From Bradyrhizobium sp. 170 (lineage in GTDB: Bacteria; Pseudomonadota; Alphaproteobacteria; Rhizobiales; Xanthobacteraceae), in the NCBI RefSeq assembly GCF_023101085.1, contig NZ_CP064703.1:5704001-5768000 (forward strand): DNA of 64,000 nt, read 5' to 3'. The notes under the pieces were generated by a model, which saw nothing but the letters and a program-made list of their open reading frames with translations, ran no database searches and had not been told where the DNA came from. This document shows, piece by piece, positions 6,578 to 22,537 of this stretch. Position numbers and translations under genes: made by a program. Position 1 is the stretch's first letter, and each line of letters opens with the position of its first letter.

Positions 6578-6594
6578 TGGCATTTGGTATGCCA
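6578..6594. promoter_or_regulatory. Operator copy 1, ligase side of the divergent promoter
   Basis: TGGCATTTGGTATGCCA is a perfect inverted repeat (TGGCAT-N5-ATGCCA), centred 33 bp from the ligase start. On the minus strand TTGACA (6610-6605) lies 10 bp before it. It matches copy 2 at 15 or more of 17 positions. It is a probable binding site for the adjacent GntR protein. Confidence 0.75.
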
Positions 6595-6649
6595 GAGATC
6601 AGATTGTCAAGTCAAAGTATCGCGCAGAAACATCGAAAACATAGGCATC

Positions 6650-6675
6650 TTGACATACTGGTATTTGGTATGCCA
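6650..6675 (+). promoter_or_regulatory. -35 hexamer plus operator copy 2, GntR-oxc-frc promoter
   Basis: TTGACA (6650-6655) is followed three bases later by the operator TGGTATTTGGTATGCCA (6659-6675). The operator therefore occupies the -35/-10 spacer, a layout that fits repression. It lies about 60 bp before the GntR start, so autoregulation is likely. Confidence 0.75.
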
Positions 6676-6735
6676 AAAATATTCGAGCATTTCTTCTGCT
6701 AAGAAGACGTCTCCAAAACAGGGAGGAGACGAGTC

Positions 6736-7467
6736 GTGCCCGAACGAAAACAAACCAAGGCGCCGCCTGTCATGGCTGAGGCAGATATTGCAATCGTCCG
6801 GATTGCTCCCGAGACGAGCTTCAAGAACAAGGCCTATGAGGCCTTGAAGGAAGCTATTCTCAAGATGGACATCTACGCGACGCCCGAGCAGGTGATGCTC
6901 GACGAACGCGCGTTGTCCGAACGCCTCGGCGTCAGCCGCACCCCTATTCGCGAAGCCATCGCGATGCTGGAACAGGATGGCTTCGTCAAAACCGTGCCGC
7001 GTCGCGGCATCGTGGTGGTCCGCCGCACCAAGACCGAGATCGTGGACATGATCCGTGCCTGGGCCGCGCTTGAGAGCATGGCCGCGCGCCTGATCACGAC
7101 CACCGCGCGCAAGAAGGACATCACGGCGCTGCGCGATTTCTTCAAGGATTTTGGCAAGGATCGCCTGCCGCAGGATCATGTCGAGGAATACTCCAAGGCC
7201 AATATCGCGTTCCATCAGGCGCTGATCTCGCTTTCGGAATCGCCGGTGCTGGTCGACATGACCAACGATATCCTGCTGCACGTGCGCGGCTACCGGCAAC
7301 TGACCATCGGCCGGAAGGATCGCACCGCGACCTCCCTGCCCGAGCATCTGGCGATCATCGAGGCGCTGGAAGCACGCGACACCGAACTCGCCGAGAAACG
7401 CGCACGCGACCACACGCTGGGCCTTGCCGCCTACGTCGAGGCGCACGGCCAGGAACTATTTACCTAG
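6736..7467 (+). CDS. GntR/FCD family regulator, probable oxalate regulon controller
   Basis: A 243-residue FadR-subfamily regulator. The wHTH lies at about residues 35-95 with the recognition region LSERLGVSRTPIREAIAMLEQ at 60-80. The FCD ligand domain spans about 105-235 and contains the usual metal/effector histidines (NIAFHQALI, PEHLAIIEAL, RARDHT). GTG 6736 is the preferred start because the purine-rich AGGGAGGAG lies 7-8 bases upstream; ATG 6772 is an alternative. It is divergent from the ligase and 66 bp ahead of oxc in the same direction. FCD regulators are usually released from DNA by an acid or acyl-CoA ligand. The repeated operator around this gene and at other oxalate genes makes it the natural candidate regulator. 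Confidence 0.93.
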   Translation: MPERKQTKAPPVMAEADIAIVRIAPETSFKNKAYEALKEAILKMDIYATPEQVMLDERALSERLGVSRTPIREAIAMLEQDGFVKTVPRRGIVVVRRTKTEIVDMIRAWAALESMAARLITTTARKKDITALRDFFKDFGKDRLPQDHVEEYSKANIAFHQALISLSESPVLVDMTNDILLHVRGYRQLTIGRKDRTATSLPEHLAIIEALEARDTELAEKRARDHTLGLAAYVEAHGQELFT

Positions 7468-7533
7468 ACGCAACTTCGCACCAGAAGACGACGAAAAATC
7501 GTCCGAACCAAAACGATCAGGGAGATGAAGCCC

Positions 7534-9264
7534 ATGCTGAATACCGCGACCAAGTCCGAAGCACCGGGCACCGAGCAAGAGCTGACGGATGGCTTTCATC
7601 TCGTCATCGATGCGCTCAAGCTCAACGGCATCAACACCATCTATGGTGTGCCGGGCATCCCGATCACGGACCTCGGCCGCATGATGCAGGCCGAGGGCAT
7701 TCGCGTGCTCTCGTTCCGCCACGAGCAGAATGCCGGCTACGCCGCTTCCATTGCCGGCTACCTGACCAAGAAACCGGGCGTCTGCCTCACCGTTTCGGCG
7801 CCCGGCTTTCTCAACGGCCTCACGGCGCTGGCCCACGCCACCACCAACTGCTTCCCGATGATCCTGATTTCGGGCTCCTCCGAACGCGAGATCGTCGACC
7901 TGCAGCAGGGCGACTATGAAGAAATGGACCAGCTCGCGATCGCCAAGCCGCTCTGCAAGGCCGCCTTCCGCGTCCTGCACGCCGCCGACATCGGCATTGG
8001 CCTGGCGCGCGCGATCCGTGCCGCCGTCTCGGGCCGCCCGGGCGGCGTTTATCTCGACCTGCCCGCAAAACTTTTCGGTCAGGTGATCGACGCGGCTGCG
8101 GGCGCGAAGTCGCTGGTAAAGGTGATCGACGCAGCACCCGCCCAGATCCCTGCCCCGTCAGCCGTCAAGCGCGCGCTCGACGTGCTCAAGGGTGCGAAAC
8201 GCCCCCTCATCATTCTCGGCAAGGGTGCGGCCTATGCGCAGGCCGACGACGAGATCCGCGCCTTCGTCGAAAAGACCGGCGCCCCGTTCCTGCAGATGAG
8301 CATGGCCAAGGGCCTCTTGCCCGACACGCATGCGCAGTCGGCGGGTGCGGCGCGCTCGACCGTGCTGAAGGATGCCGACGTCGTCATGCTGATCGGCGCC
8401 CGCCTCAACTGGCTGCTGTCGCACGGCAAGGGCAAGACCTGGGGCGACGCCCCGAAGAAATTCATCCAGATCGATATCGAGCCGAAGGAAATGGATTCCA
8501 ACGTCGAGATCGTGGCCCCCGTGGTCGGCGATGTCGGCTCCTGCGTCTCCGCGCTGCTCGAGGGCATGGGCGGCAACTGGTCCGCCGCGCCGGCCGACTG
8601 GGTCAATACCGTCAACAAGAAGCGTGACGACAACGTCGCCAAGATGGCGCCGAAGCTGATGAGCAACGCCTCGCCGATGGATTATCACGGCGCGCTCGGC
8701 GCACTGCGCACCATCATCAAGGAGCGGCCCGACGCCATCCTCGTCAACGAAGGCGCCAACACGCTCGACCTCGCCCGCGGCGTCATCGACATGTACAAGC
8801 CGCGCAAGCGTCTCGACGTCGGCACCTGGGGCGTGATGGGCATCGGCATGGGCTATTCGATCGCAGCCGCCGTCGAAACCGGCAAGCCGGTGCTGGCGAT
8901 CGAGGGCGACTCGGCCTTCGGCTTCTCCGGCATGGAGATCGAGACCATCTGCCGCTACCAGCTTCCGGTCTGCATCGTCATCTTCAACAATGACGGCATC
9001 TATCGCGGCACCGACGTCAATTCGGGCGGCTCGGATCCGGCGACGACGGTATTCGTCAAGGGCTCGCGCTACGACAAGATGATGGAAGCCTTCGGCGGCG
9101 TCGGCATCAACGCCACTTCGCCCGACGAATTGAAGCGCGCCGTCAACGCCGCGATGGATTCCGGCAAGCCGACACTCATCAACGCGGTGATCGATCCGGC
9201 AGCCGGTTCCGAAAGCGGCCGCATCGGCAACCTCAATCCGCAGAGCGTTTTGAAGAAGAAGTAA
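7534..9264 (+). CDS. oxc: Oxalyl-CoA decarboxylase
   Basis: A 576-residue thiamine-diphosphate enzyme that converts oxalyl-CoA to formyl-CoA and CO2 in the cytoplasm. The N-terminal PYR domain carries the catalytic Glu64 in [12 protein letters not shown] central regulatory domain contains [15 protein letters not shown]. The C-terminal PP domain has the ThDP/Mg motif GDS at 458-460 running to FNNDG (484-488). The length matches characterised enzymes (about 565-570). ATG 7534 is chosen over ATG 7525 because AGGGAG (7519-7524) directly abuts 7525 but is well spaced from 7534. It follows the GntR gene by 66 bp, with frc next, and they probably form one operon. Confidence 0.97.
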
Positions 9265-9280
9265 ACAGATCAACCCATCG

Positions 9281-9396
9281 GCGTCATTCCCCGCGCAGGC
9301 GAGGAATCCAGTACCCCCGAACTATCGCGTGACGAAGGCTGTGCCCGACTGAACCGACGGTGATTACTGGATGCCCGCCTTCGCGGGCATGACGGC
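9281..9396. repeat. Palindromic intergenic repeat between oxc and frc
   Basis: The ends are inverted copies: GTCATTCCCCGCGCAGGC... at the left pairs with ...GCCTTCGCGGGCATGAC at the right, with AATCCAGTA facing TACTGGAT inside. This is a well-known dispersed palindrome type in Bradyrhizobium. It could fold in the oxc-frc message and adjust relative expression. Confidence 0.8.
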
Positions 9397-9421
9397 AACA
9401 GATAGTAAGAGGAGAGAACAT

Positions 9422-10699
9422 ATGTCTAAGGCGCTCAAGGGCGTTCGTATTCTTGATTTCACCCACGTTCAGTCGGGTCCGACCTGCACGCAATTGCTGG
9501 CCTGGTTCGGCGCCGACGTGATCAAGGTCGAGCGCCCCGGCGTCGGCGACATCACGCGTGGCCAGTTGCAGGACATTCCCAATGTGGACAGCCTGTATTT
9601 CACCATGCTCAACCACAACAAGCGCTCGATCACGCTCGACACCAAGAACCCGAAGGGCAAGGAAGTCCTGACCGCGCTGATCAAGAGCTGCGACGTGCTG
9701 GTGGAAAATTTCGGCCCCGGCGTGCTCGACCGCATGGGCTTCCCCTGGGAGAAGATCCACGCCATCAACCCGAAGATGATCGTGGCCTCGATCAAGGGCT
9801 TTGGCCCCGGCCCCTTCGAAGACTGCAAGGTGTATGAGAACGTCGCCCAGTGCACCGGCGGCGCGGCCTCGACCACCGGCTTCCGCGACGGCCTGCCGCT
9901 CGTGACCGGCGCGCAGATCGGCGACAGCGGCACTGGGTTGCATCTCGCGCTCGGCATCGTCACCGCGCTCTATCAGCGCACCATGACCGGCCAGGGCCAG
10001 AAGGTCACCGCCGCGATGCAAGATGGCGTGTTGAATCTTGCGCGTGTAAAACTGCGCGATCAGCAGCGCCTCGCCCACGGACCGCTGAAGGAATACAGCC
10101 AGTACGGCGAAGGCATCCCGTTCGGCGACGCGGTGCCGCGCGCCGGCAACGATTCCGGCGGCGGCCAGCCCGGGCGCATCGTCAAGTGCAAGGGCTGGGA
10201 GACCGATCCCAACGCCTACCTCTATTTCATCACCCAGGCGCCGGTGTGGGAGAAGATCTGCGACGTGATCGGCGAGCCCGGCTGGAAGACCCATCCGGAT
10301 TACGCCAAGCCGCCTGCCCGGCTGTCGCGCCTGAACGAGATCTTCGCCCGCATCGAACAGTGGACGATGACCAAGACCAAGTTCGAGGCGATGGAAATCC
10401 TCAACAAGGACGACATCCCCTGCGGCCCGATCCTTTCGATGAAGGAGATCATCGAGGACCGGTCGCTGCACGCCACCGGCACCCTGGTCGAGGTCGATCA
10501 CCCCACCCGCGGCAAGTACATCTCGGTCGGCAACCCGATCAAGCTGTCGGACTCACCGAGCGAAGTGACGCGCTCCCCGCTGCTCGGCGAGCACACCGAT
10601 GAGATCCTGCGCCAGGTGCTCGGCTTCAGCGATCACCAGGTGGCCGAAATCCACGATTCCGGCGCGCTCGACCCGCCGCGGAAGCAGGCGGCGGAATAA
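9422..10699 (+). CDS. frc: Formyl-CoA:oxalate CoA-transferase
   Basis: A 425-residue class III CoA-transferase that moves CoA from formyl-CoA to oxalate, feeding oxc. It has the family N-terminus ([31 protein letters not shown]). The catalytic Asp168 is in AQIGDSGTG, equivalent to Asp169 of the Oxalobacter enzyme, and the glycine loop is SGGGQPGR. The length is the family standard. ATG 9422 has a strong site (AGAGGAGAGAAC) upstream; an earlier in-frame ATG at 9371 lies inside the palindromic repeat and is rejected. The last 110 codons are duplicated at 15665-15998. Confidence 0.97.
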
Positions 10700-10720
10700 C
10701 GACGCCATCCGAACAGCACG

Positions 10721-10748
10721 AAAGGCCGCCGATTTCGGCGGCCTTTTT
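10721..10748 (+). terminator. Rho-independent terminator after frc
   Basis: The stem AAAGGCCGCC / GGCGGCCTTT has a short loop and ends in a T-run (CTTTTTGTT), 21 bases after the frc stop. Confidence 0.9.
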
Positions 10749-11154
10749 GTTAGGGCGGGAGGACGTCAGGTGACCTCGGTACGGCGGCCACTCGCTGCAC
10801 AGGATGTCGCATCGAAGATGCAATACAGATGAGTTGCTGAATGTTGTTCAGCTATTCGGTTGGTTGCGAGGACCCACGAGAGACGCCCCACACAGACGTG
10901 CCCCATTGCTCCTATCCTCAGCCCTTTGAAGGACTGGCAGCTTTACGTCGGCAAGCGGACGTCGGGGATAACAGATGCAAGCCGGCTATGGGCCCACAAG
11001 CCGACATTACCAACATCATTCGACCACTTCGTCGGCGCTGACGAGTACGGAGGGCGACATGGTGAGAAGGCCTGCCATATATCATTGCACCTGAAATAAT
11101 CGGGTGCAGAGATACGCTCCCCGCGGTACAATAGAGCTGTCCGAGGGCCGGCCC
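10749..11154. other. Intergenic, no gene seen
   Basis: About 400 bases between the frc terminator and the hydrolase-LuxR gene. Short open frames here have no ribosome site or recognisable sequence. I see no operator copy and no repeat. The left junction of the inserted segment (see the frc fragment) should lie in or near it. Confidence 0.5.
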
Positions 11155-12387
11155 ATGCGTCAGGACATCCGATTTTGCACGACGCCCGACAACGTGCAGC
11201 TCGCTTATGCAGTCTGCGGCGAAGGCCCCCCATTGGTGATGTCGGCCACTTGGCTTTCGCATCTCGAACATCAGTGGCGCAGCCTTGCTTGGCGCCCATG
11301 GCTCGACGCCTTCACCCGCAAGCACAAGGTGTTGCGCCACGACTCCCGGGGCTGCGGACTCTCAGACCGGAACGCCGGCAATCTTTCGTTCGAAACCTGG
11401 GTGCGTGATCTCGAATGTGTCGTTGAGGCGGCTGGCTTCGGACGATTTGCTATGGTCGGGACCTGCTGGGGCGGTCCGATTGCCCTCGAGTATGCGGCGC
11501 GACACCCGGAGCGCGTCAGCCATCTCGTCCTCTATGGCACCTACGCGAGAGGCACCCAGCGGCGAGGAGATTTTCCGCACGATGCAGAGCGAATGCGGGT
11601 CATGCAAGACATCACGCGGCTAGGTTGGGCAAACGAGGACCACGCGTTCCTGCAGATATGGTCCTCCCGGTTTCAGCCGGGCGGCGGTCGGGAGCATCGA
11701 CGCTCCTGGTGCGAGCAGATGCGCGCGGCGACCTCGCCTGATACCGCGATCCGGCTGTTTGAGATCGCCGGCAATATCGATGTGCAAGACGCTGCGCGAA
11801 AAGTCCGATGCCCGGCGCTGATCGTGCATCCGGAGCGCGACGTCAACGTCCCGATCGGGGAGGCCCGATTGCTTGCCGGTCTCATCCCCCATTGCCGCTT
11901 CGTGCAGCTCGACACCGACAACCACATGCTGCTCGCCGATGAGCCGGCTTGGGACCAACTCGTCAGTGAGGTGCGAAGTTTTCTCGCCGAGCCGGGGTAT
12001 TCGCCTGCGGCCCGTCGCACCGGCTTGCCGCTGGAAGAGCTGACGCCCCGAGAGCGCGCCGTCCTGGAAGAGGTCGCCAAGGGTCTCGACAATTCGGAAA
12101 TCGCCGCCGTGCTGCGGCTCTCGGAGAAGACGGTTCGAAATCATATCAGCAGGATCTTCGACAAGATCGACGTCAAACATCGCTATCAGGCGATCGTGCT
12201 CGCTCGTGAAGCAGGGCTGGGCGCGACCTTTGGTTCGTCAGTCGGGCCGGAGACAGGGCATTTGTCCCGGGTGCTCGGTGCAGCACCAAAAGCGCGTCGG
12301 GACATTGGCCTCAAGACACCGGCCTTCTCTCGCGCCAGGATGCCGACAGAGGGCGCGACCCGCGCGCCCGCAGGCAAACCGAGGTGA
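11155..12387 (+). CDS. Alpha/beta hydrolase fused to a LuxR-type HTH
   Basis: A 410-residue fusion. Residues about 1-275 are an alpha/beta hydrolase: oxyanion region around GEGPPLVMSATWLSHLEHQW, nucleophile elbow GTCWGG (Cys104 where Ser is usual), acid residue in HPERDVNVP and His in TDNHMLLAD. Residues about 305-370 are a LuxR/GerE HTH (LTPRERAVLEEVAKGLDNSE, TVRNHISRIFDKI). The last 40 residues are low-complexity. This architecture is a known family of predicted ligand-sensing regulators, where the hydrolase fold may bind rather than turn over a ligand. ATG 11155 gives the usual MRQDIRFCTTPDNVQLAYA start; GTG 11104 is an unlikely longer option. It is the first gene of the segment between the two frc 3' ends. 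Confidence 0.88.
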   Translation: MRQDIRFCTTPDNVQLAYAVCGEGPPLVMSATWLSHLEHQWRSLAWRPWLDAFTRKHKVLRHDSRGCGLSDRNAGNLSFETWVRDLECVVEAAGFGRFAMVGTCWGGPIALEYAARHPERVSHLVLYGTYARGTQRRGDFPHDAERMRVMQDITRLGWANEDHAFLQIWSSRFQPGGGREHRRSWCEQMRAATSPDTAIRLFEIAGNIDVQDAARKVRCPALIVHPERDVNVPIGEARLLAGLIPHCRFVQLDTDNHMLLADEPAWDQLVSEVRSFLAEPGYSPAARRTGLPLEELTPRERAVLEEVAKGLDNSEIAAVLRLSEKTVRNHISRIFDKIDVKHRYQAIVLAREAGLGATFGSSVGPETGHLSRVLGAAPKARRDIGLKTPAFSRARMPTEGATRAPAGKPR

Positions 12388-12533
12388 GCGGGATGTCCGG
12401 CGGATGTCCGACAGATACCATTGAATAGGGCGGCAGTCCCATTCCGCCCGACGGCTCTCGTTTGCGCGAAGCAAGGCGCGTCGAAGGCGGGCGGTCTCGC
12501 AGCCTCGGATGCCGACAACGAGAGGAGCGCAAC

Positions 12534-13823
12534 ATGCACGCCAATCTTCTTAGGTTGTCGGTTGTCGTCGCCATGATGGCCACGGCACCATCGACATTCG
12601 CCAACGTCATCACCGATTGGGACCAGAAAGCCCTTGCTGTCGTCGCACCGATGGCAAGCCTCGGAGGCACGTCGCCCTATATGGCGCAACGCATGATGGG
12701 CATGGTCCACGCCGCGATGTTCGACGCGGTCAACTCCATCGATCGTCAGTATCGACCGTATGTCGCGCAGCTGCCGGCCGATCCTGGCACATCGAAAGAA
12801 GCCGCCGCTGCCGCCGCTGCCGCCGCCGTCCTGACGACCATCGATGCAAAGACCGCCGATGAAATGAAGGTAGCGCTCGCCACGTATCTCGCGTCGATCC
12901 CCGATGGCTTGGCGAAATGGTCCGGCGTCCGGCTTGGCGAGGCGGCCGCCGCGAAAATCGTTGCGGCGCGCGCAAACGATGGATGTGACGCGCCCGATGT
13001 CTACCGCCCAAGGACCACGCCCGGCGTCTATGTGCCGACGCCGATCACGATCTCGTCGATGTGGCCGGACATGAAGCCGTTCGCCCTCACCAGGGGATCG
13101 CAATTCCGGCCCGGTCCGCCGATCTCGCTCGACAGCAAGGAATGGGCAACGGACTACAATGAGCTCAGGGAATATGGCGGTCAGACCAGCGCGAAGCGAA
13201 CGCCCGAGCAGACCGAGATCGCCCGGTTCTGGCTGGTGGGCCCGCCCGTTGCCTATCACCCGTTCGTGCGCTCGCTCGTGACGGCGAAGCAGATGAGCGT
13301 CGTCGACGGCGCGCGGTTCATGGCGCTGGTGGCAATCGGGCTCAATGACGCGATCATCGCCGTGTTGGATGCCAAATATCACTACAATTTCTGGCGCCCG
13401 ATCACAGCCATCCGCAACGGCGATCTTGATGGCAATCCGGCGACCGATCGTGAGGCGACCTGGCAGCCGATCTCCAACACGCCCATGCACCCTGAATACC
13501 CGTGCTCGCACTGCATCCAAAGTGGCACCGTCGCAGCCGTGGTCGAGGCGGTCCTGGGAAGCATGGACATCCCTGAAACCGCGATGACAAGCCCGACGGC
13601 GCCCGGCGTCACCCGCCGTTGGACCAACATGACGGCCTACACGGAAGAAGTTGCCAATGCCCGCATCTGGGCCGGTTTTCATTACCGCTTCTCGACTCGG
13701 GTCGGCACGGAAATGGGACTCGAGATCGGTGAACACGTCGTGAGAAACGTAATGCAGCCAGCCCTGACGGCAGCGCCGCAGCAGCAATTGCTTCCGCAGG
13801 GAATGATCCCTGCTGCACGATAG
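12534..13823 (+). CDS. Vanadium-dependent haloperoxidase / PAP2-like exported protein
   Basis: A 429-residue protein with a signal peptide (cleavage near PSTFA). The vanadate/phosphate pocket motifs are in order: K281-x6-R288-P289 (KYHYNFWRP), PCSH at 323-326 in place of the usual PSGH, and R377-x5-H383 (ARIWAGFH). The fold family covers vanadium haloperoxidases and acid phosphatases, and halide specificity cannot be read from sequence. The start at 12534 has GAGAGGAG seven bases upstream. It is about 145 bp behind the hydrolase-LuxR gene in the same direction, so that regulator might control it (inference). The motif-2 substitution is discussed as a finding. Confidence 0.88.
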   Translation: MHANLLRLSVVVAMMATAPSTFANVITDWDQKALAVVAPMASLGGTSPYMAQRMMGMVHAAMFDAVNSIDRQYRPYVAQLPADPGTSKEAAAAAAAAAVLTTIDAKTADEMKVALATYLASIPDGLAKWSGVRLGEAAAAKIVAARANDGCDAPDVYRPRTTPGVYVPTPITISSMWPDMKPFALTRGSQFRPGPPISLDSKEWATDYNELREYGGQTSAKRTPEQTEIARFWLVGPPVAYHPFVRSLVTAKQMSVVDGARFMALVAIGLNDAIIAVLDAKYHYNFWRPITAIRNGDLDGNPATDREATWQPISNTPMHPEYPCSHCIQSGTVAAVVEAVLGSMDIPETAMTSPTAPGVTRRWTNMTAYTEEVANARIWAGFHYRFSTRVGTEMGLEIGEHVVRNVMQPALTAAPQQQLLPQGMIPAAR

Positions 13824-14042
13824 CGAGCGTCCCCGGCGGCCCCCACCCCGGTGCTCTTCGGTGTAGAAGACTTTCAGCCGGCCAGAGCCGCGGCGATTCC
13901 GGGGCAGTCGCGCCGACGGGTGGTCGAATGAGGCCGCGGGAGTTCATCGCGCTCTAAGGGAGCGCGGTATCTCGCCGATACCCGCTTTCCAGCTCGTTGC
14001 CGACCGATTCGGCGATCGAGCCACGAACACAGGGAGGACAAT

Positions 14043-15638: not shown

Positions 15639-15664
15639 ATGTATCTGCTCACAAGAAACAAGAT

Positions 15665-15998
15665 GATGACCAAGACCAAGTTCGAGGCGATGGAAATCCT
15701 CAACAAGGACGACATCCCCTGCGGCCCGATCCTTTCGATGAAGGAGATCATCGAGGACCGGTCGCTGCACGCCACCGGCACCCTGGTCGAAGTCGATCAC
15801 CCCACCCGCAGCAAGTACATTTCGGTCGGCAACCCGATCAAATTGTCGGACTCACCGAGCGAGGTGACCCGATCGCCGCTGCTCGGCGAGCACACCGACG
15901 AGATCCTGCGCCAGGTGCTCGGCTTCTCCGATCACCAGGTCGCCGAGATCCACGATTCCGGCGCGCTCGATCCGCCGCGGAAGCAGGCGGCCGAATAA
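15665..15998 (+). pseudogene. Formyl-CoA transferase 3' fragment (second frc copy)
   Basis: A 110-codon fragment equal to the C-terminus of frc (10366-10699). By eye about 16 of 333 bases differ, nearly all synonymous, with one residue changed (Gly to Ser in HPTRSKY); the first ~125 bases are identical. An open frame continues upstream only to 15639, giving a few unrelated residues after the stop of the binding-protein gene. The fragment lacks the CoA-binding fold and the catalytic Asp, so it cannot be an active transferase. The synonymous pattern suggests a former functional paralogue later truncated from the 5' side. Confidence 0.92.
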
Positions 15999-16026
15999 GC
16001 CAACTCTTAGGAGAACACAAAATGCC

Positions 16027-16058
16027 AAGGCCGCCGGTTTCCGGCGGCCTTTTTCTTT
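16027..16058 (+). terminator. Rho-independent terminator after the frc fragment
   Basis: The stem AAGGCCGCCGG / CCGGCGGCCTT has loop TTT, then TTTTCTTTCT. It closely resembles the terminator after intact frc, so the duplication probably included or shared this end. Confidence 0.9.
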
Positions 16059-16140
16059 CTAGGATGTTCCGTCTGGAATGCCACTTTCGTTATTTTTGCT
16101 GCAATGCAAACGGTCAATTGCTGCTATGCAAACAAGCCTG

Positions 16141-16164
16141 TTGTAGCTGGCATCTGGTATACAT
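16141..16164 (+). promoter_or_regulatory. Operator copy 3 with -35-like element, microprotein promoter
   Basis: TTGTAG (16141-16146), one base, then TGGCATCTGGTATACAT (16148-16164). It fits TGGYAT-N5-ATRYCA except at the last base. It is 57 bases before the start of the 45-residue ORF. Confidence 0.65.
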
Positions 16165-16220
16165 AAATTGTGCGGAGATCACCAAGCGGAATGGTTCCGC
16201 ACCAAGAAAAGGGGACAAAC

Positions 16221-16358
16221 ATGTCCAAGACTGCATCCATCGGCCTCCTGCCCTCCGGCACCCTGTTCGGCCGTCTGATGGCGTCCATCGACCGCCTGCT
16301 GACCGCGAGCAGCCGTATCGCCATCCGCAACGGCGACCTCCCCTATTTCGGTCTCTGA
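16221..16358 (+). CDS. 45-residue microprotein in the oxalate regulon
   Basis: A short ORF, MSKTASIGLLPSGT... ending NGDLPYFGL. AAAAGGGGAC (16206-16215) is well placed before ATG 16221. The middle (LFGRLMASIDRLLTASSRI) can form one amphipathic helix; no signal peptide or transmembrane segment is evident. It has its own operator copy 57 bases upstream and a strong terminator 75 bases downstream, so it looks like an independent transcription unit of the GntR regulon rather than noise. I have a vague memory of similar small proteins near oxc genes in Bradyrhizobium but cannot confirm it. No function is assigned; a small regulator or a subunit of one of the oxalate enzymes is possible. Confidence 0.7.
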   Translation: MSKTASIGLLPSGTLFGRLMASIDRLLTASSRIAIRNGDLPYFGL

Positions 16359-16431
16359 GCCTAGAAAATAAGCGGTTTTCGATCGAAGGTCTTTCCAGGC
16401 GAACGGCCCCTCCGCATGAACTCTCTGTAGC

Positions 16432-16460
16432 AATGGCCCCGGTTTCCGGGGCCATTTTTC
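16432..16460 (+). terminator. Rho-independent terminator after the microprotein
   Basis: The stem AATGGCCCCGG / CCGGGGCCATT has loop TTT, then TTTCG. The ATTTTTC tail is typical. Confidence 0.9.
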
Positions 16461-16535
16461 GTTTGCAGCGGGCCGCCGACTTTTACCAACATCTGCGACA
16501 AATCAGCCCAAATGCCAATTCGCCCCAATAACCGT

Positions 16536-16560
16536 TTGCGTCCTGGCATATCGCATACAA
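16536..16560 (+). promoter_or_regulatory. Operator copy 4 with -35-like element, upstream of tctCBA
   Basis: TTGCGT (16536-16541), two bases, then TGGCATATCGCATACAA (16544-16560). The spacing matches the other copies. The next gene, tctC, starts 332 bases later, so the leader would be long. The region 16561-16891 holds no convincing ORF. Confidence 0.55.
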
Positions 16561-16891
16561 AGATACATCAAGGGCGCCCGCACCGAAAAGAAGGGCGCAT
16601 TTGGGGGGATAAAGTCGTGCGGTCCACGAGGACAGCCAAGGCGATCTGGCGCGAAGCCGGCGGTGCATCTCACCTGCCCTCTTCGGCGTTATGCAAATAC
16701 ACAATTGGCCGAAAGGAGCGGATGCCGCACCGAAAGGTCCCTCTTACAATTCGAGCCTGCAGTCATCGCACGGGGACAACCGTTGCGGTGTAACAGTCAT
16801 GAGTGCGAGAACAACCCGATCGGATGGTCGGGACAGAACTAGAAAGCCGGCAAAGACCGACGTAACCACAGTTCGACGGGAGAGAAACAAA

Positions 16892-17905
16892 ATGAAGCAC
16901 ACTGCACAAACGGCGTTTGGCGCAATTGCCGCCTTATGCGCGATCGGGATTTCTGTTCCTGCGACCGCAGCATGGGAACCGGTGCGGCCAGTCGAGTTCA
17001 TCGTTCCTGCCGGCACCGGCGGCGGCGCCGATCAGATGGCGCGGACGATCCAGGGCATCGTTACCAAGCACAGCCTGATGAAGCAGCCGATGGTCGTCAT
17101 CAACAAGTCGGGCGGCGCCGGCGGCGAAGGCTTCCTCGACCTCAAGGGATCGGGCGGAAATCCGCACAAGATCATCATCACGCTCTCCAACCTCTTCACC
17201 ACCCCTCTCGCGACGGGAATTCCTTTCAGCTGGAAGGATCTCACACCGGTAACGATGCTGGCGCTCGATGAGTTCGTGCTGTGGGTGAATGCCGAAAAAC
17301 CGTACAAGACGACGAAAGAGTATATTGATGCCGTGAAGGCCGCTCCTGCCGGTACTATGAAGATGGGCGGCACCGGCTCGAAGCAGGAAGACCAGATCAT
17401 TACGGTCGCGGTCGAGAAAGCCACCGGCAGCAAGTTCACCTACATTCCCTACAAGGGCGGCGGCGAAGTCGCTGTTCAGCTCGTCGGCAACCATGTTGAT
17501 TCCACCGTCAACAATCCGATTGAGGCCGTCGCGCAATGGCGCGGTGGCAAGCTGCGTCCGCTTTGCGTGTTCGACGCGCAGCCGATGGGCTATGACGAAC
17601 AGGTCGCGGACGGCAAGAGCTGGAAGGATATTCCGACCTGCAAATCGCAGGGTCTCGACATGGAATATCTGATGCTGCGCGGCATCTTCATGTCGCCACG
17701 GGCAACCAAGGACCAGATCGAATATTACGTCGAACTGTTCAAGAAGGTTCGCGCCACACCCGAGTGGCAGGACTTCATGAAGAGCGGCGCGTTCAACACG
17801 ACCTCCCTGACCGGGGCAGAATATGCCAAGTGGGTCGAGGTCGAGGAAAAGCGCCACGAGGTCCTGATGAAGGATGCCGGTTTCCTTGCCGCACCGGGCA
17901 ACTGA
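16892..17905 (+). CDS. tctC: Tripartite tricarboxylate transporter receptor TctC
   Basis: A 337-residue periplasmic Bug-type receptor. The signal peptide ends near VPATAA. Bug features include VEFIVPAGTGGGADQMART, VVINKSGGAGGEGF and KFTYIPYKGGGEVAVQL. These proteins bind carboxylates through water-bridged main-chain contacts. ATG 16892 is chosen for its signal peptide and GACGGGAGAG upstream; the frame is open further upstream but codes for no plausible protein. It is the first gene of tctC-tctB-tctA. An operator copy upstream points to a carboxylate of the oxalate pathway as cargo (inference). Confidence 0.94.
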   Translation: MKHTAQTAFGAIAALCAIGISVPATAAWEPVRPVEFIVPAGTGGGADQMARTIQGIVTKHSLMKQPMVVINKSGGAGGEGFLDLKGSGGNPHKIIITLSNLFTTPLATGIPFSWKDLTPVTMLALDEFVLWVNAEKPYKTTKEYIDAVKAAPAGTMKMGGTGSKQEDQIITVAVEKATGSKFTYIPYKGGGEVAVQLVGNHVDSTVNNPIEAVAQWRGGKLRPLCVFDAQPMGYDEQVADGKSWKDIPTCKSQGLDMEYLMLRGIFMSPRATKDQIEYYVELFKKVRATPEWQDFMKSGAFNTTSLTGAEYAKWVEVEEKRHEVLMKDAGFLAAPGN

Positions 17906-17942
17906 TCGACGCATCGGCCGCAACCGGGATCATAACGCAGAC

Positions 17943-17961
17943 GCCGGGCCTCGGGCCCGGC
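17943..17961 (+). promoter_or_regulatory. Intercistronic stem-loop tctC-tctB
   Basis: A perfect 8-bp stem GCCGGGCC / GGCCCGGC with loop TCG, in the 72-base gap between tctC and tctB and with no T-run. Such hairpins often stabilise the upstream receptor message so that the binding protein outnumbers the membrane subunits. Confidence 0.6.
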
Positions 17962-17977
17962 CGCGCATGGAGTTTTG

Positions 17978-18475
17978 ATGACAACAGGCAGCTCAAGCAA
18001 GACAGGCCCCACCCACAAGCTGGTGGAGGCAGGGATCACGTTGCTGATCGCCCTCTTCGGCGTCATCGTTATCGTCGGCAGCCTGAAGGCCGGCGTTAAC
18101 TGGGGCGCGGAGGGTCCGCGCGCCGGCTTCTTTCCATTCTACATCGGAATCTTCATCGTCGCAGCCAGCGGGATAAACCTGTGGAACGGACTGCGCGAAG
18201 ACAATGACGAGCTATTCGCGGAATGGGGACAGCTTCGCCAGGTCATGAGCGTCGTCGTTCCAACCGCGATCTATGTCGGCGTCATGTCGTTCACGGGGCT
18301 GTATCTCGCGTCGATCGTCTTCATCGCATGGTTCATGCGATGGCTCGGCAAGTACCCTTGGATTACCGTGCTGGCCGTCGCGCTTGGCATGCCCATTGTC
18401 ACCTATTTCATTTTCGAGCGCTATTTTCTGGTCCCGCTTCCCAAGGGGCCGATCGAAGAGTGGCTCGGTCTGTAA
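17978..18475 (+). CDS. tctB: Tripartite tricarboxylate transporter small membrane subunit TctB
   Basis: A 165-residue protein with four predicted membrane segments (LVEAGITLLIALFGVIVIVG; FFPFYIGIFIVAASGINLW; VVVPTAIYVGVMSFTGLYLA; ITVLAVALGMPIVTYFIF). This is the typical TctB size and topology. It forms the membrane complex with TctA in the inner membrane. ATG 17978 is preferred over TTG three bases earlier. It lies 27 bases before tctA. Confidence 0.92.
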   Translation: MTTGSSSKTGPTHKLVEAGITLLIALFGVIVIVGSLKAGVNWGAEGPRAGFFPFYIGIFIVAASGINLWNGLREDNDELFAEWGQLRQVMSVVVPTAIYVGVMSFTGLYLASIVFIAWFMRWLGKYPWITVLAVALGMPIVTYFIFERYFLVPLPKGPIEEWLGL

Positions 18476-18502
18476 CATCGACGCACAGTCAGGATTATCG
18501 GG

Positions 18503-20002
18503 ATGGAAGAACTCCTCAATCTGTTTCATGGCTTTGCGGTCGCGCTGCAGCCTTTCAACATCATGGTGATGGTCCTCGGCATCGTGCTCGGCGTCATCAT
18601 CGGCGTGCTTCCGGGATTGGGCGGCGCTAATGGCGTTGCGATCCTGTTGCCGCTGACATTCTCGATGCCGCCGACGTCGGCCATCATCATGCTGTCCTGT
18701 ATTTATTGGGGCGCATTGTTCGGCGGAGCGATCACCTCAATTCTCTTCAACATACCCGGCGAACCATGGTCGGTGGCGACCACATTCGACGGCTACCCGA
18801 TGGCGCAGAAGGGCAAGGCCGGCGAGGCGCTGACCGCGGCCTTCACCTCATCGTTCGTGGGCGCCCTGTTCGCCGTGATCATGATCACGCTGGTCGCGCC
18901 GCTGGTCGCAAGCTTTGCGCTGCAATTCGGGCCAGCCGAGAAATTTGCGGTCTATTTTCTGGCGTTCTGCAGTTTCGTCGGCTTGAGCAAGGAGCCACCG
19001 TTCAAGACCATTGCGGCCATGATGATCGGATTTGCGCTTGCCGCCGTCGGCCTCGACTCCATCACCGGACAGTTGCGGCTGACATTCGGCGTTACCCATT
19101 TGCTCAACGGGTTCGACTTCCTCATCGCCGTCATCGGGCTGTTCGGCATCGGCGAGATCCTGCTGACGATGGAGGAAGGGCTCGCCTTCCGCGGCGGCAG
19201 CGCCAAGATCAATTTGCGGGTGGTGCTGCAGACCTGGAAGGAGTTGCCGGCCTACTGGGTGACGTCGCTGCGCTCCTGCGTGATCGGCTGCTGGATGGGC
19301 ATCACGCCGGCCGGCGCGACGCCGGCCTCCTTCATGAGTTACGGCATCGCCAAGCGGGTGTCGAAGAAAGGCAGCAATTTCGGCAAGGGCGAAATCGAAG
19401 GCGTGGTCGCGCCGGAGACCGCCGCGCACGCCGCCGGCACCGCCGCGCTGCTGCCGATGCTTTCGCTAGGCGTGCCGGGTTCACCGACGGCTGCCGTGTT
19501 GCTCGGCGGCCTCCTGATCTGGGGTCTGCAGCCCGGACCGATGCTGTTCGTCGAACAGAAGGAATTCGTCTGGGGCCTGATTGCCTCGATGTATCTCGGC
19601 AATCTCGTCGGCCTGATCGTCGTGTTGACCTGCGTGCCGGTTTTCGCGGCCATCCTGCGCGTCCCCTTCAGCATCATCGCGCCGCTCATCCTGGTGCTGT
19701 GCGCGATCGGTGCCTATTCGGTCCACAGCTCTACGTTCGACGTGATCCTGATGCTGGTGTTCGGCGTGATCGGTTATTTGCTCAAGAAGTGCAATTATCC
19801 CCTCGCCCCGCTGGTGCTGGCCATCGTGCTCGGCGACAAGGCGGAAGAGGCATTCCGGCAGTCGTTGCTGGGATCCCAGGGCTCGCTCGGCATATTCTTT
19901 TCCAACACGCTGGTCAGCACGATCATGATCCTGGGATTGGTGGCGCTGTTCTGGTCGGTGATCCAGCAGGGCTATACCCGCTTGCGCGGCGCCGTTGCCT
20001 GA
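18503..20002 (+). CDS. tctA: Tripartite tricarboxylate transporter large membrane subunit TctA
   Basis: A 499-residue polytopic protein of TctA length with about 12 membrane segments. It carries the family glycine-rich signature near the N-terminus (GVLPGLGGANGVAILLPL) and the repeat-like second signature (LGVPGSPTAAVLLGGLLIWG), plus YWGALFGGAITSILFNIPG. It is the solute channel and uses the membrane ion gradient with the TctC receptor. It is the last gene of the operon; no clear terminator follows before the repeat at 20109. Confidence 0.95.
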   Translation: MEELLNLFHGFAVALQPFNIMVMVLGIVLGVIIGVLPGLGGANGVAILLPLTFSMPPTSAIIMLSCIYWGALFGGAITSILFNIPGEPWSVATTFDGYPMAQKGKAGEALTAAFTSSFVGALFAVIMITLVAPLVASFALQFGPAEKFAVYFLAFCSFVGLSKEPPFKTIAAMMIGFALAAVGLDSITGQLRLTFGVTHLLNGFDFLIAVIGLFGIGEILLTMEEGLAFRGGSAKINLRVVLQTWKELPAYWVTSLRSCVIGCWMGITPAGATPASFMSYGIAKRVSKKGSNFGKGEIEGVVAPETAAHAAGTAALLPMLSLGVPGSPTAAVLLGGLLIWGLQPGPMLFVEQKEFVWGLIASMYLGNLVGLIVVLTCVPVFAAILRVPFSIIAPLILVLCAIGAYSVHSSTFDVILMLVFGVIGYLLKKCNYPLAPLVLAIVLGDKAEEAFRQSLLGSQGSLGIFFSNTLVSTIMILGLVALFWSVIQQGYTRLRGAVA

Positions 20003-20108
20003 AGGGAGCAAGGCGCCATCGCCGGAGCGAACAAAATCTTTCCCTAAAGCCTGACGAGAGCGTGATGACTTTTCTTCGAATCGTCATCCCGCTCTGCCTC
20101 TTTGATTT

Positions 20109-20184
20109 GAGCATGATCGCCGCGCAAACGCGTTCCGCGCTTGTCGCGAGGGAAAACCGGTACCCACTTTTCCGGATCATGCTC
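20109..20184. repeat. Dispersed palindromic repeat (GAGCATGATC type)
   Basis: GAGCATGATC (20109-20118) is inverted at 20175-20184. Between them lie GCGCAAACGCGTTCCGCGC and AAAACCGGTACCCACTTTTCC. This is a very common intergenic element in Bradyrhizobium and Rhodopseudomonas. It lies in the 535-base gap between tctA and oxlT, which has no gene. Confidence 0.85.
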
Positions 20185-20251
20185 CAGAAAATGCGAGGAG
20201 CATTTCGAGGAGCATTTTCAGGCGCTTCCCAACCACTCGAACGGGGTCGTC

Positions 20252-20275
20252 ATGGCCGGGCACTGTCCCGGCCAT
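20252..20275. repeat. REP-like hairpin
   Basis: A stem ATGGCCGGG / CCCGGCCAT with loop CACTGT. This is a short REP-like palindrome next to the previous element. Confidence 0.6.
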
Positions 20276-20461
20276 TCGCGGTTTTGGACGCTGGGATATC
20301 AGGCTCGAGAAATCGCAAGCTTTCGTAACGAACGCCGCCAGCTACGCTCATCAACTAATTTCTTTTTTGTTTCAGTATTTTAACGTGCGGCTTGATCACC
20401 GCTGTTCTAATGACGCGTTTTCCGCAGCAACAGGAAATGCGACAATCTGGCAAGATTTCTC

Positions 20462-20486
20462 TTGTCTACTGGCATAACATATACCA
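20462..20486 (+). promoter_or_regulatory. Operator copy 5 with -35-like element, oxlT promoter
   Basis: TTGTCT (20462-20467), two bases, then TGGCATAACATATACCA (20470-20486), a full TGGYAT-N5-ATRCCA match. It ends 51 bases before the oxlT start. Confidence 0.75.
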
Positions 20487-20537
20487 AACTCCTCGCATGA
20501 GCTGTCGGGTATCGATAGAACAGCCTATGGAGGGAAG

Positions 20538-21833
20538 ATGACGGACACAGTGCACGGAGCGGCCCCCGTCGCGGCGGCCCGAGTAAGCGACGCTTATCGC
20601 TGGACCCAATTGGCCATCGGCGTCGCCGCGATGGTGATGATCGCCAATTATCAATATGGGTGGACTTTCTTCGTCCCCGACATCCAGAAGAAATTCGGAT
20701 GGGATCGCGCGTCGATCCAGTGGGCCTTTACGCTGTTCGTTCTGTTCGAGACCTGGCTGGTGCCGGTCGAGGGATGGTTCGTCGATAAATACGGCCCGCG
20801 CATCGTCGTCCTCGTCGGCGGCATCCTCTGCGCCGTCGGATGGGCAATCAACGCCCAGGCGACCACCCTCAACGGCTTCTATCTCGGCATGATCATCGCG
20901 GGCATCGGCGCCGGTGGCGTGTACGGCACCTGCGTCGGCAACGCGCTGAAATGGTTTCCCGACAAGCGCGGCCTTGCCGCTGGCATCACCGCCGCCGGTT
21001 TCGGCGCGGGCTCGGCGCTGACGGTCGCGCCGATCCAGGCGATGATCAAGGACTCCGGCTTCCAGACCACCTTCCTCTATTTCGGTCTCGGCCAGGGCAT
21101 CATCATCGTGATCCTCGCCTTCTTCCTGTTCTCGCCGAAGTCAGGACAAGTGCCGGCGGTGACGCAGAACGCCAACATCATCCAGACCCGGCGCAATTAT
21201 CAGCCGACCGAGGTGATCCGTCAGCCGATCTTCTGGTTGATGTATTTCATGTTCGTGATCGTCGGCGCCGGCGGATTGATGGTCACCGCCAACCTCAAGC
21301 CGATCGCGGTCGACTGGAAGGTTGACAGCGTGCCGGTCACGCTGATGGCGGTGACGATGACGGCGGTGACGTTCGCGGCCACCATCGATCGCGTCCTCAA
21401 CGGCCTGACCCGCCCCTTCTTCGGCTGGATCTCCGACATGATCGGCCGCGAGAACACCATGTTCATCGCGTTCGGGATGGAAGGCATCGGCATCTGGGGC
21501 CTCTACATGCTGGGCCACGATCCCGTGTGGTTCGTGCTGCTGTCGGGCTTCGTGTTCTTTGCCTGGGGTGAGATCTACTCCCTCTTCCCGTCGACCTGCA
21601 CCGATACGTTCGGTTCGAAGTTCGCGACCACCAATGCCGGCCTGCTCTACACGGCAAAGGGCACCGCGGCGCTGCTGGTGCCTGTCGCGAACTACATGCA
21701 GCAGTCTTCGGGCACCTGGGACACCGTGTTCATCGTCGCGGCCGGCGCGAATATCCTGGCCTCGGTGCTTGCGATCGCGGTGCTCAAGCCGTGGCGCAAG
21801 GTGGTGGTCGCCAAATCGCAGCTTGCGGCCTGA
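20538..21833 (+). CDS. oxlT: MFS transporter of the OxlT oxalate/formate antiporter family
   Basis: A 431-residue major facilitator with about 12 membrane segments. The MFS loop motif appears as DKYGPRIVVLVGG after segment 2. Arg292 (NGLTRPFFGWISD) and Lys374 (LLYTAKGTAALL) are spaced 82 residues apart, close to the Arg272/Lys355 pair that binds oxalate in the Oxalobacter carrier, so the same role is likely (alignment from memory). It should exchange oxalate for formate or take up oxalate. GGAGGG ends only three bases before the ATG; GTG at 20551 is an alternative start. It is a single-gene unit between operator copy 5 and a terminator. Confidence 0.9.
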   Translation: MTDTVHGAAPVAAARVSDAYRWTQLAIGVAAMVMIANYQYGWTFFVPDIQKKFGWDRASIQWAFTLFVLFETWLVPVEGWFVDKYGPRIVVLVGGILCAVGWAINAQATTLNGFYLGMIIAGIGAGGVYGTCVGNALKWFPDKRGLAAGITAAGFGAGSALTVAPIQAMIKDSGFQTTFLYFGLGQGIIIVILAFFLFSPKSGQVPAVTQNANIIQTRRNYQPTEVIRQPIFWLMYFMFVIVGAGGLMVTANLKPIAVDWKVDSVPVTLMAVTMTAVTFAATIDRVLNGLTRPFFGWISDMIGRENTMFIAFGMEGIGIWGLYMLGHDPVWFVLLSGFVFFAWGEIYSLFPSTCTDTFGSKFATTNAGLLYTAKGTAALLVPVANYMQQSSGTWDTVFIVAAGANILASVLAIAVLKPWRKVVVAKSQLAA

Positions 21834-21862
21834 TCCGAACCGGATCGGTTGTTCGAAAGAAG

Positions 21863-21899
21863 CGCGCTCATCCCTCAGGGATGGGCGCGTTTTCTTTTG
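21863..21899 (+). terminator. Rho-independent terminator after oxlT
   Basis: The stem CGCGCTCATCCC / GGGATGGGCGCG (one G-T pair) is followed by TTTTCTTTT, 29 bases after the stop. Confidence 0.9.
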
Positions 21900-21905
21900 C
21901 CTGGA

Positions 21906-21922
21906 CGGCCTCTGGTATACCT
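21906..21922. promoter_or_regulatory. Operator copy 6 (degenerate)
   Basis: CGGCCTCTGGTATACCT matches copy 3 at 14 of 17 positions and keeps the core CTGGTATACC. It lies between the oxlT terminator and copy 7, so it may be an auxiliary site for the CBS-panE2 promoter. Confidence 0.45.
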
Positions 21923-22046
21923 GAGCGCTTTTTGGCCCGCACCAGAAGATGACGCCCTTCCTCCGGCCGGGAGGCTGCGTCCAATAATGTCAGCAATACT
22001 GCCTATTTATCTTCATCCTGGCGAAAGATTTCCACTGCCAGGCGTG

Positions 22047-22071
22047 TTGACAATTGGCATTATGTATACCA
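22047..22071 (+). promoter_or_regulatory. -35 hexamer plus operator copy 7, CBS-panE2-FAA promoter
   Basis: TTGACA (22047-22052), two bases, then TGGCATTATGTATACCA (22055-22071), a full match. It ends 34 bases before the CBS gene start. Confidence 0.78.
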
Positions 22072-22105: not shown

Positions 22106-22537
22106 ATGCAAGTCGGAGATATTCTGCGAACGAAAGCCGCCCGTGTCGCAACGGTCCGCATGAACGAGACCGTCGCCATCGCCGCCCAACTGATGCGCTC
22201 CAGCAATATCAGCGCGCTTGTGGTGAAAGATGTGGTGCGCACCGAAGGCAACACGGCGGTCGGCATGTTCACCGAACGCGACGTGGTGCGCGCGATCGCC
22301 CAGCACGGCGTGGCCGGGGTGAATATGCGCGTTTCGCAATTCATTTCGGTACAGCAGCTCGTCTCCTGCACATCGACGGATACGCTCGAGCATGTCCGTC
22401 ACCTCATGAGCAAGCATCACATCCGCCACGTGCCTGTGATCGACAATTACAGCCTGATCGGCGTCATCAGCATTCGCGATATCTTCAACGCGTTCGACGA
22501 CGAAGCAACGCCCTTCAATCTGGCCGCGTCGGCTTGA
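22106..22537 (+). CDS. Two-CBS-domain protein
   Basis: A 143-residue stand-alone Bateman module. CBS1 covers about residues 8-65 (VRMNETVAIAAQLMRSSNIS, GMFTERDVVRAIAQHG) and CBS2 about 75-132 (LVSCTSTDTLEHVRHLMSKH, RHVPVIDNYSLIGVISIRDI). Such modules bind adenine nucleotides, SAM or NAD and regulate a partner. AAGGAGG (22094-22100) is a near-perfect ribosome site. It heads the presumed operon with panE2 and the FAA-family gene under operator copy 7. This suggests it senses cofactor or energy state for oxalate metabolism (inference). The partner is unknown. Confidence 0.92.
   Translation: MQVGDILRTKAARVATVRMNETVAIAAQLMRSSNISALVVKDVVRTEGNTAVGMFTERDVVRAIAQHGVAGVNMRVSQFISVQQLVSCTSTDTLEHVRHLMSKHHIRHVPVIDNYSLIGVISIRDIFNAFDDEATPFNLAASA

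Follow-up and report, generated by a model that had tools for sequence, protein, structure and literature searches.

What governs the use of oxalate, a carbon compound common in plants and fungi, in Bradyrhizobium, and how far does this control extend beyond the genes that degrade it? The question is raised by a 64-kb window of the genome of Bradyrhizobium sp. 170 (contig NZ_CP064703.1, positions 5,704,001 to 5,768,000; the window is the whole stretch of DNA analysed here), where a 17-bp palindrome, the operator TGGYAT-N5-ATRYCA, recurs before oxalate genes and beside a gene, gntR, for a regulator of the GntR superfamily. From the sequence comparisons described below we conclude that a GntR protein with a metal-site FCD domain of the VanR group controls itself and an oxalate-to-formate-to-CO2 regulon, which is larger than the original prediction, a GntR repressor acting on seven operators of the oxalate pathway, had proposed.

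The seven operator coordinates of that prediction are all correct; as copies of one pattern, however, only those at 6578, 6659, 20470 and 22055 are exact, and since 16544, 16148 and 21906 deviate at one, two and three positions, respectively, the seven sites become four exact ones, two variants and a doubtful one:

6578..6594, no strand: operator 1, TGGCATTTGGTATGCCA, exact; between the ligase gene and gntR, 25 bp upstream of the ATG of the ligase
6650..6655, + strand: predicted -35 box of gntR, TTGACA, invariant in 80/80 relatives
6659..6675, no strand: operator 2, TGGTATTTGGTATGCCA, exact; in the predicted gntR promoter
16148..16164, no strand: operator 3, a weaker form, TGGCATCTGGTATACAT, two mismatches, right half ATACAT; before the microprotein gene
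16544..16560, no strand: operator 4, TGGCATATCGCATACAA, one mismatch, right half ATACAA; before tctCBA
20470..20486, no strand: operator 5, TGGCATAACATATACCA, exact; before oxlT
21906..21922, no strand: degenerate candidate operator, doubtful, three mismatches; 149 bp before operator 6
22055..22071, no strand: operator 6, TGGCATTATGTATACCA, exact; before CBS-panE-FAA

In the window scan, 0.05 exact matches are expected and the number found was reached by none of 100 shuffles, while at up to two mismatches, with both strands counted, there are 38 matches versus 14.3 expected; the two- and three-mismatch sites, each taken alone, are not significant. Over the 9.2-Mb chromosome, the exact pattern occurs at nine places, of which four are those of the window, and the reversed-pattern control at none, by which chance is rejected as the origin of the motif. 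A genome-wide frequency above chance, which the original prediction had made one of its tests, was therefore found, with the exact places concentrated on oxalate genes. The one-mismatch scan of the same genome gave 78 forward and 85 reverse matches, with 17 and 20 in the controls.

The operators are also kept in 80 related loci, which come mostly from Bradyrhizobium, with some from Tardiphaga, one from a Rhodopseudomonas metagenome-assembled genome (MAG), and others from unclassified MAGs. In 80/80 of these loci, the interval between ligase and gntR has both its operators in exact form, 81 or 82 bp apart in 74; such a kept spacing might reflect a tetramer that pairs the two sites or loops the DNA, as Atu1419 does. 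The oxlT operator is exact in 33 of 38 loci and the cbs operator in 24 of 26, whereas the tctC operator is found with at most one mismatch in all 28 and exactly in 16, and the microprotein operator in a version with one or two mismatches in 42/42, its commonest right halves ending in CAT, CGT or CCT. Because relatives keep the tctC site and the microprotein variant, 16544 and 16148 are supported as operators. In total, 235 exact sites were counted in 1.55 Mb of related loci (gntR/ligase 160, oxlT 33, cbs 24, tctC 16, other 2), and the two leftovers, tctC-like and near locus ends, appear to be cut-off tctC sites. Along the gntR-ligase stretch, the top base has a mean frequency of 0.94 and 0.84 for the two operators and of 1.0 for TTGACA, compared with 0.61 for the remainder. 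As for 21906, GGTATACC is kept in 7 of the 20 relatives examined and a GGAATAC-type remnant in 4 more, with such remnants located 125–151 bp before the cbs operator, and it is a weak candidate for an operator.

How would a protein bound at these sites act? Among the loci in which a site was found, the TTG of the -35 hexamer starts 8 or 9 bases before the operator at gntR (80/80), oxlT (36/36), cbs (26/26) and tctC (28/28), and 7 or 8 bases before it in 33 of the 42 microprotein loci; the gntR TTGACA ends 3 bp upstream of operator 2, invariably in 80/80. A TTG hexamer placed 1–3 bp before five operators, as first described in the window, thus holds there and across the relatives too. One could suppose that the palindrome is itself a promoter element of the sigma-54 (-24/-12) type, given that TGGCAT-N5-ATGCC resembles the sigma-54 consensus GG-N10-GC, and GC indeed occupies positions 14–15 of the gntR operators in 80/80 and of the ligase operators in 34/43 (37 of the 80 ligase sites, being too close to the start codon, are not counted here). 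The AC-type sites nevertheless contradict it, with GC at these positions in 0/36 oxlT, 0/26 cbs and 0/28 tctC operators, and both arms are symmetrically conserved, with a sigma-70-like TTGACA at a fixed place upstream; we give the sigma-54 element a negligible probability. Since the operator fills the predicted -35/-10 spacer, we infer repression, and judge it probable that the GntR protein acts as a repressor. That it binds there and activates, or is needed for induction, is unlikely: activators do exist among the FCD GntR proteins, and CitO binds DNA with citrate and induces (PMC4746285), but an operator inside the -35/-10 spacer at five predicted promoters is typical of steric repression, and Atu1419, a structural relative, is described as repressing from such places (PMC7797058).

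Which protein reads the operator was addressed in two samples of genomes. In the first, 150 genomes of the order, occurrences of TGGYAT-N5-ATRCCA were counted and set against matches to GntR homologues. In each of the 15 genomes with a GntR of at least 236 bits there are 3 sites or more (mean 6.7), and the mean is 3.2 in the 13 genomes at 200–236 bits, 1.7 in the 15 below 200 bits, and 1.3 in the 107 with no GntR match at 1e-30, of which 17 carry at least 3 sites. Strong-GntR and no-GntR genomes differ with p 6e-10, a value obtained from genomes that are not phylogenetically independent, and the reversed-pattern control gives 0.6 for the under-200-bit group and about 0.2 for each of the other three. 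In all five families where a contrast was possible, genomes with the GntR have more sites than those without it (f50, 5 vs. 0 and 1; f28, 10 and 8 vs. 1 and 0; f11, 11 vs. 0 and 0; f52, 6 vs. 1 and 0), less clearly so in f42 (4 vs. 3, 3 and 1). In the second sample, 61 genomes of the family, the mean number of sites is 4.6 where the GntR is at least 82% identical (12 genomes), 0.76 where it is 47–58% identical (41 genomes), and 0.12 where there is none at 1e-40 (8 genomes). Within Bradyrhizobium, gntR is present in all 30 genomes drawn, and the next GntR is at most 35% identical among the matches listed; six of these genomes have just four sites, which in the four-site genomes G151, G169, G157 and G158 stand at sucC, at cbs, and at the two gntR/ligase places. 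Because the motif is rare, is found on oxalate genes, and follows the GntR in number through 150 and 61 genomes, the pairing of regulator and operator and the regulon itself are well supported: we regard the operator and its regulon as real with near certainty, and the GntR protein of the window as very likely its binder, judging from these comparisons.

The motif could still be read by another regulator, either the product of the iclR gene that lies beside the ligase gene at 3414–4265 or an unlinked factor, with GntR merely nearby. An IclR is present in 42 of the 80 loci as fetched and in the clusters of G200 and G193, and some genomes without a GntR match carry the motif, as taken up below. 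However, the clusters of G218, G215, G182 and G201 have sites and no IclR match in the stretch examined, while those of G216, G195, G190b and G226 have a 36–37% identical IclR relative and no exact site, so that sites and IclR occur apart in the clusters compared and IclR is rejected as the binder. GntR presence, in contrast, predicts the number of sites in both samples, and gntR stands directly behind the best conserved operator. All in all, a reader other than GntR seems improbable to us.

How far does the GntR regulon extend? Outside the window, one exact site (2294755), millions of bases from the cluster, precedes a fused FdsG/FdsB-type gene and, behind it, the gene for a formate dehydrogenase alpha subunit, fdsA, which meets TIGR01591 with 722 bits (cut-off 666), and another (185710) lies between mdh and sucC. 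A third (465983) is found just before a gene for a solute-binding protein 56% identical to that of the window cluster, a fourth (480267) about 200 bp upstream of a gene for an MFS transporter, and the fifth (6999207) inside an open reading frame with an FkbM domain. Upstream of fdsGB, the site is exact in 17 of the 30 Bradyrhizobium genomes and has one mismatch in 7, and upstream of sucC it is exact in 29, the matched coding controls giving 0/30 each at up to one mismatch; in the 30th genome (G164), it stands about 225 bp before a second sucC copy, and also before a divergent iclR. In four other genera (G215, G200, G218, G234), the only exact site beyond the cluster is one upstream of fdsGB. 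The sequences thus indicate that formate dehydrogenase and sucC belong to the regulon as well, probably together with the distant solute-binding protein; a pathway-wide regulon, as originally proposed, is well supported by them, and only its scope had been drawn too small. In 7 of 8 other Bradyrhizobium genomes, a second, more distant NuoF-like gene (36–39%) is seen about 14–16 kb beyond the cbs operator, perhaps corresponding to the formate dehydrogenase genes named bll3135-3137 in B. japonicum (PMC4070659). In a genome of another family (G106), exact sites are found at the ligase gene and oxlT, in the stretch of frc/oxc, and close to a pair of sucC-like and panE genes; two further exact sites (L328 and L330) also occur. 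The same genome has an exact operator some 0.5 kb upstream of a transhydrogenase gene, NAD(P) transhydrogenase alpha by NF006942 (421 bits; cut-off 383).

The sucC site might instead belong to a separate regulator of the tricarboxylic acid (TCA) cycle with the same motif, to which we give a minor probability. Indeed, sucC is a housekeeping gene, its site has a stable centre of its own, ATGGT, in most genomes, and most other GntR-bearing genera lack the site. Nevertheless, Bradyrhizobium has no close GntR paralogue among the matches listed, and four relatives (G200, G193, G234, G218) carry a second sucC within the oxalate cluster, between operator-bearing genes, their TCA sucC being without a site. 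The cluster copies of G200, G193 and G218 pass the cut-off for succinate-CoA ligase and miss that for malate, by which a malate-CoA ligase is rejected for the copies tested. The two arrangements are not strictly either/or: because five GntR-bearing relatives (G221, G203, G182, G225, G215) have neither in the stretches examined, a sucC site or a cluster sucC copy is a tendency and not a rule. In G206, whose GntR is only 50% identical, a palindrome, TGGTATTACGTATACCA, ends 16 bp before sucC.

What would the regulator respond to? The protein belongs to the FCD subfamily of the GntR superfamily, with 49.9 bits for PF00392 (cut-off 27) and 81.6 bits for PF07729 (cut-off 24.3), and it fails the equivalog cut-offs of NanR (NF003011, 65.5 vs. 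260) and PhnR_burk (TIGR03338, 95.4 vs. 271.5). The VanR group of FCD proteins has six helices, and the model of the window protein (predicted local distance difference test, 84) has six of at least 10 residues between 99 and 237; FCD proteins are described as having six or seven (PMC4494728). Among the structural matches listed, the closest are 7u5q, PmiR, TM0439 and Atu1419, the best full-length ones include VanR-type proteins, and no closer named regulator is found. The model therefore places the protein in the VanR group, nearer to VanR-type structures than to FadR itself. In the recognition helix of the homologues, REAI or REAV goes with sites and REAM with their absence, in too few sequences for a claim. 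N156, H160, H204 and H226 are invariant in 23/23 homologues, an Asn (Asn or Asp in such sites) and three His, which by sequence is a predicted metal site, and their spacing of 4/44/22 is the same as that of the metal ligands N144/H148/H192/H214 of Ps5454 (PMC7674646). Because metal FCD pockets bind carboxylates, oxalate or glyoxylate would be a likelier ligand than a CoA ester, and we lean towards oxalate or a close C2 acid as the inducer, with less assurance than for repression.

Most likely, then, the GntR-FCD protein encoded at 6736–7467 would bind the palindrome and, at the gntR, microprotein, tct, oxlT and cbs promoters, where the operator sits behind the -35 hexamer, would exclude RNA polymerase. 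Its local targets would be its own operon, gntR-oxc-frc, and the divergent CoA ligase, the uptake systems tctCBA and oxlT, the microprotein, and CBS-panE-FAA; at a distance, it would repress fdsGB-fdsA and, in Bradyrhizobium, sucC. A small carboxylate, likeliest oxalate or glyoxylate, would bind the metal at N156/H160/H204/H226 and release GntR, which would provide one switch over oxalate uptake, CoA activation, decarboxylation, formate oxidation and glyoxylate formation. Taken as a whole, we consider this explanation probable. The genes of the cluster, whose names in the original prediction (ligase, FCD GntR, oxc, frc, TctCBA, OxlT, CBS, PanE-like, FAA hydrolase) proved broadly right, are as follows:

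4387..6552, - strand: ADP-forming acyl-CoA ligase, divergent from gntR; passes no equivalog cut-off
6736..7467, + strand: gntR, GntR-FCD regulator and proposed binder; PF00392 and PF07729
7525..9264, + strand: oxc, oxalyl-CoA decarboxylase; TIGR03254 above cut-off
9371..10699, + strand: frc, formyl-CoA:oxalate CoA-transferase; TIGR03253 above cut-off
16221..16358, + strand: microprotein of 45 amino acids with conserved homologues
16691..17905, + strand: tctC, PF03401; the true start may be further in
17975..18475, + strand: tctB, PF07331
18503..20002, + strand: tctA, PF01970
20538..21833, + strand: oxlT, oxalate/formate antiporter; TIGR04259 above cut-off
22106..22537, + strand: CBS-domain protein; PF00571, two stretches
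22641..23663, + strand: PanE-like reductase, NF005089 above cut-off; which, partly from its context, may be the oxalyl-CoA reductase PanE2
23663..24451, + strand: FAA hydrolase, PF01557

In 38 unique operators of five genes, TGG and AT are invariant in the left half and AT and C in the right, with G in 26 and A in 12 at position 10, and T in 26 at position 8. One possible reading of the gntR, fds and sucC sites is a TGGYATGCCA of 10 bp with an extra TGGYAT seven bases upstream; these sites, and the ligase sites when read on one strand, hold TGGYATGCCA or TGGYATACCA plus one more TGGYAT. The inner TGGYATGCCA is found in the listed gntR sites and not at oxlT, cbs or tctC, whose operators keep well only the outer pair, 9 nt apart, their inner left box being degenerate. 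Operators of the FadR subfamily are reported to have TKGT/ACMA boxes, with GT and AC 2–3 nt apart and extra half-sites 7–12 nt away (PMC4494728); the present ones resemble these in part, in their boxes and extra half-sites, and may lie near the family range, yet the 9-nt spacing of an invariant outer pair is unusual beside the reported 2–3 nt (PMC4494728).

Among known systems, Atu1419 of Agrobacterium fabrum (PDB 6z74, 6za3), a VanR-group FCD GntR about 25% identical to the window protein in the structural alignment, reads a 10-bp palindrome, ATGTATACAT, and has hydroxycinnamate genes as its targets. NanR, the sialic acid repressor of E. coli and the second NCBIfam match, has a half-site, GGTATA, like TGGYAT (PMC8012715), but in repeats of one direction, in contrast with the 17-bp inverted repeat here. 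GlcR of Paracoccus denitrificans, where it and BhcR serve glycolate/glyoxylate control, is a GntR repressor of a neighbouring C2-acid pathway (PMC11323563); it controls glycolate oxidase, and P. denitrificans is not known to grow with oxalate as its only source. Among the open-access papers listed, none was found, by its title or the start of its abstract, on an oxalate-responsive GntR or other transcription factor (subscription papers and RegPrecise were outside the scope of this search), and in a survey of regulons in Proteobacteria, no word of the main text starts with "oxal" (PMC5343134). B. diazoefficiens is described as metabolising oxalate in culture, with Frc and Oxc cited as expressed in 21-day nodules (PMC4926349). 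On arabinose compared with mannitol, Frc and Oxc were more abundant in its cytoplasmic fraction, and blr2316, annotated as NADH-ubiquinone oxidoreductase chain F, was detected on arabinose only (PMC5996035, Table 2), an observation in favour of the proposed regulon.

Several observations weigh against GntR as the reader of the operator and against the reach we give its regulon. Of the 107 genomes of the order without a GntR match, nine carry at least 4 sites (4–8 exact ones, in G011, G040, G051, G059, G075, G078, G083, G084 and G096), where another reader of the motif may exist. The GntR homologues at 47–58% identity that lie beside oxc-frc are mostly without the motif, and near 12 regulators of this group, an enumeration of gapped palindromes gave no clear substitute, the best being present in 3 of 12 and the shuffled maximum being 2 in 19 shuffles and 3 in one. 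Because these homologues mostly lack the motif and no substitute was found, our claim of a pairing is limited to the window protein's own clade and close relatives. The genomes counted are related by descent. The fds site has two mismatches in 6 of the 30 Bradyrhizobium genomes, and the sucC site is confined to a minority of the GntR-bearing genera outside Bradyrhizobium. The outer half-sites are farther apart than in the FadR-subfamily operators reported (PMC4494728). Lastly, it is annotation and map position, and not sequence, that make blr2316 the probable fds gene.

Beyond the mechanism given above, we propose tentatively, and with the doubt in our own minds outweighing the conviction, that this FCD GntR senses oxalate as a bidentate ligand of a buried metal; that its oxalate-formate-CoA regulon, conserved in Bradyrhizobium and several other families of the order, has an unusual one-turn-spaced TGGY-N9-RCCA operator; and that housekeeping sucC was captured in Bradyrhizobium so that the supply of succinyl-CoA rises with oxalate, some relatives using a cluster copy of sucC instead. 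Once a regulator can be named, together with its operator and its targets, oxalotrophy becomes open to direct tests. The regulon links formate dehydrogenase and sucC with the use of oxalate, and it hints at what the CoA ligase, CBS protein, FAA hydrolase and microprotein under the same control may do. The pair of operator and regulator is also a candidate part for an oxalate biosensor.

Regarding the remaining genes, the operator is also found upstream of a relative of the ligase in genomes of another family. The microprotein is fixed in length, with 45 amino acids in 42 of 44 loci, and its codon positions 1, 2 and 3 show 411, 306 and 638 differences; it has 1092 homologues at E 0.01, with no Pfam domain among the 120 listed of them, and a conserved tail, RNGDLPxFGL. 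No tRNA was found in the window, nor any Rfam element in its positions 1–30000. Finally, 300 nt of the 3' end of frc occur twice, at 10363–10662 and 15662–15961, with 95% DNA identity and 109/110 in protein, and these duplicated ends flank a 5.3-kb stretch with genes for a LuxR-type hydrolase/regulator, a PAP2/vanadium-peroxidase-like protein and a solute-binding protein. None of the three genes was found in the 80 related loci (at 40% identity and half coverage), and from its sequence, the stretch looks like an insertion with a duplicated end.

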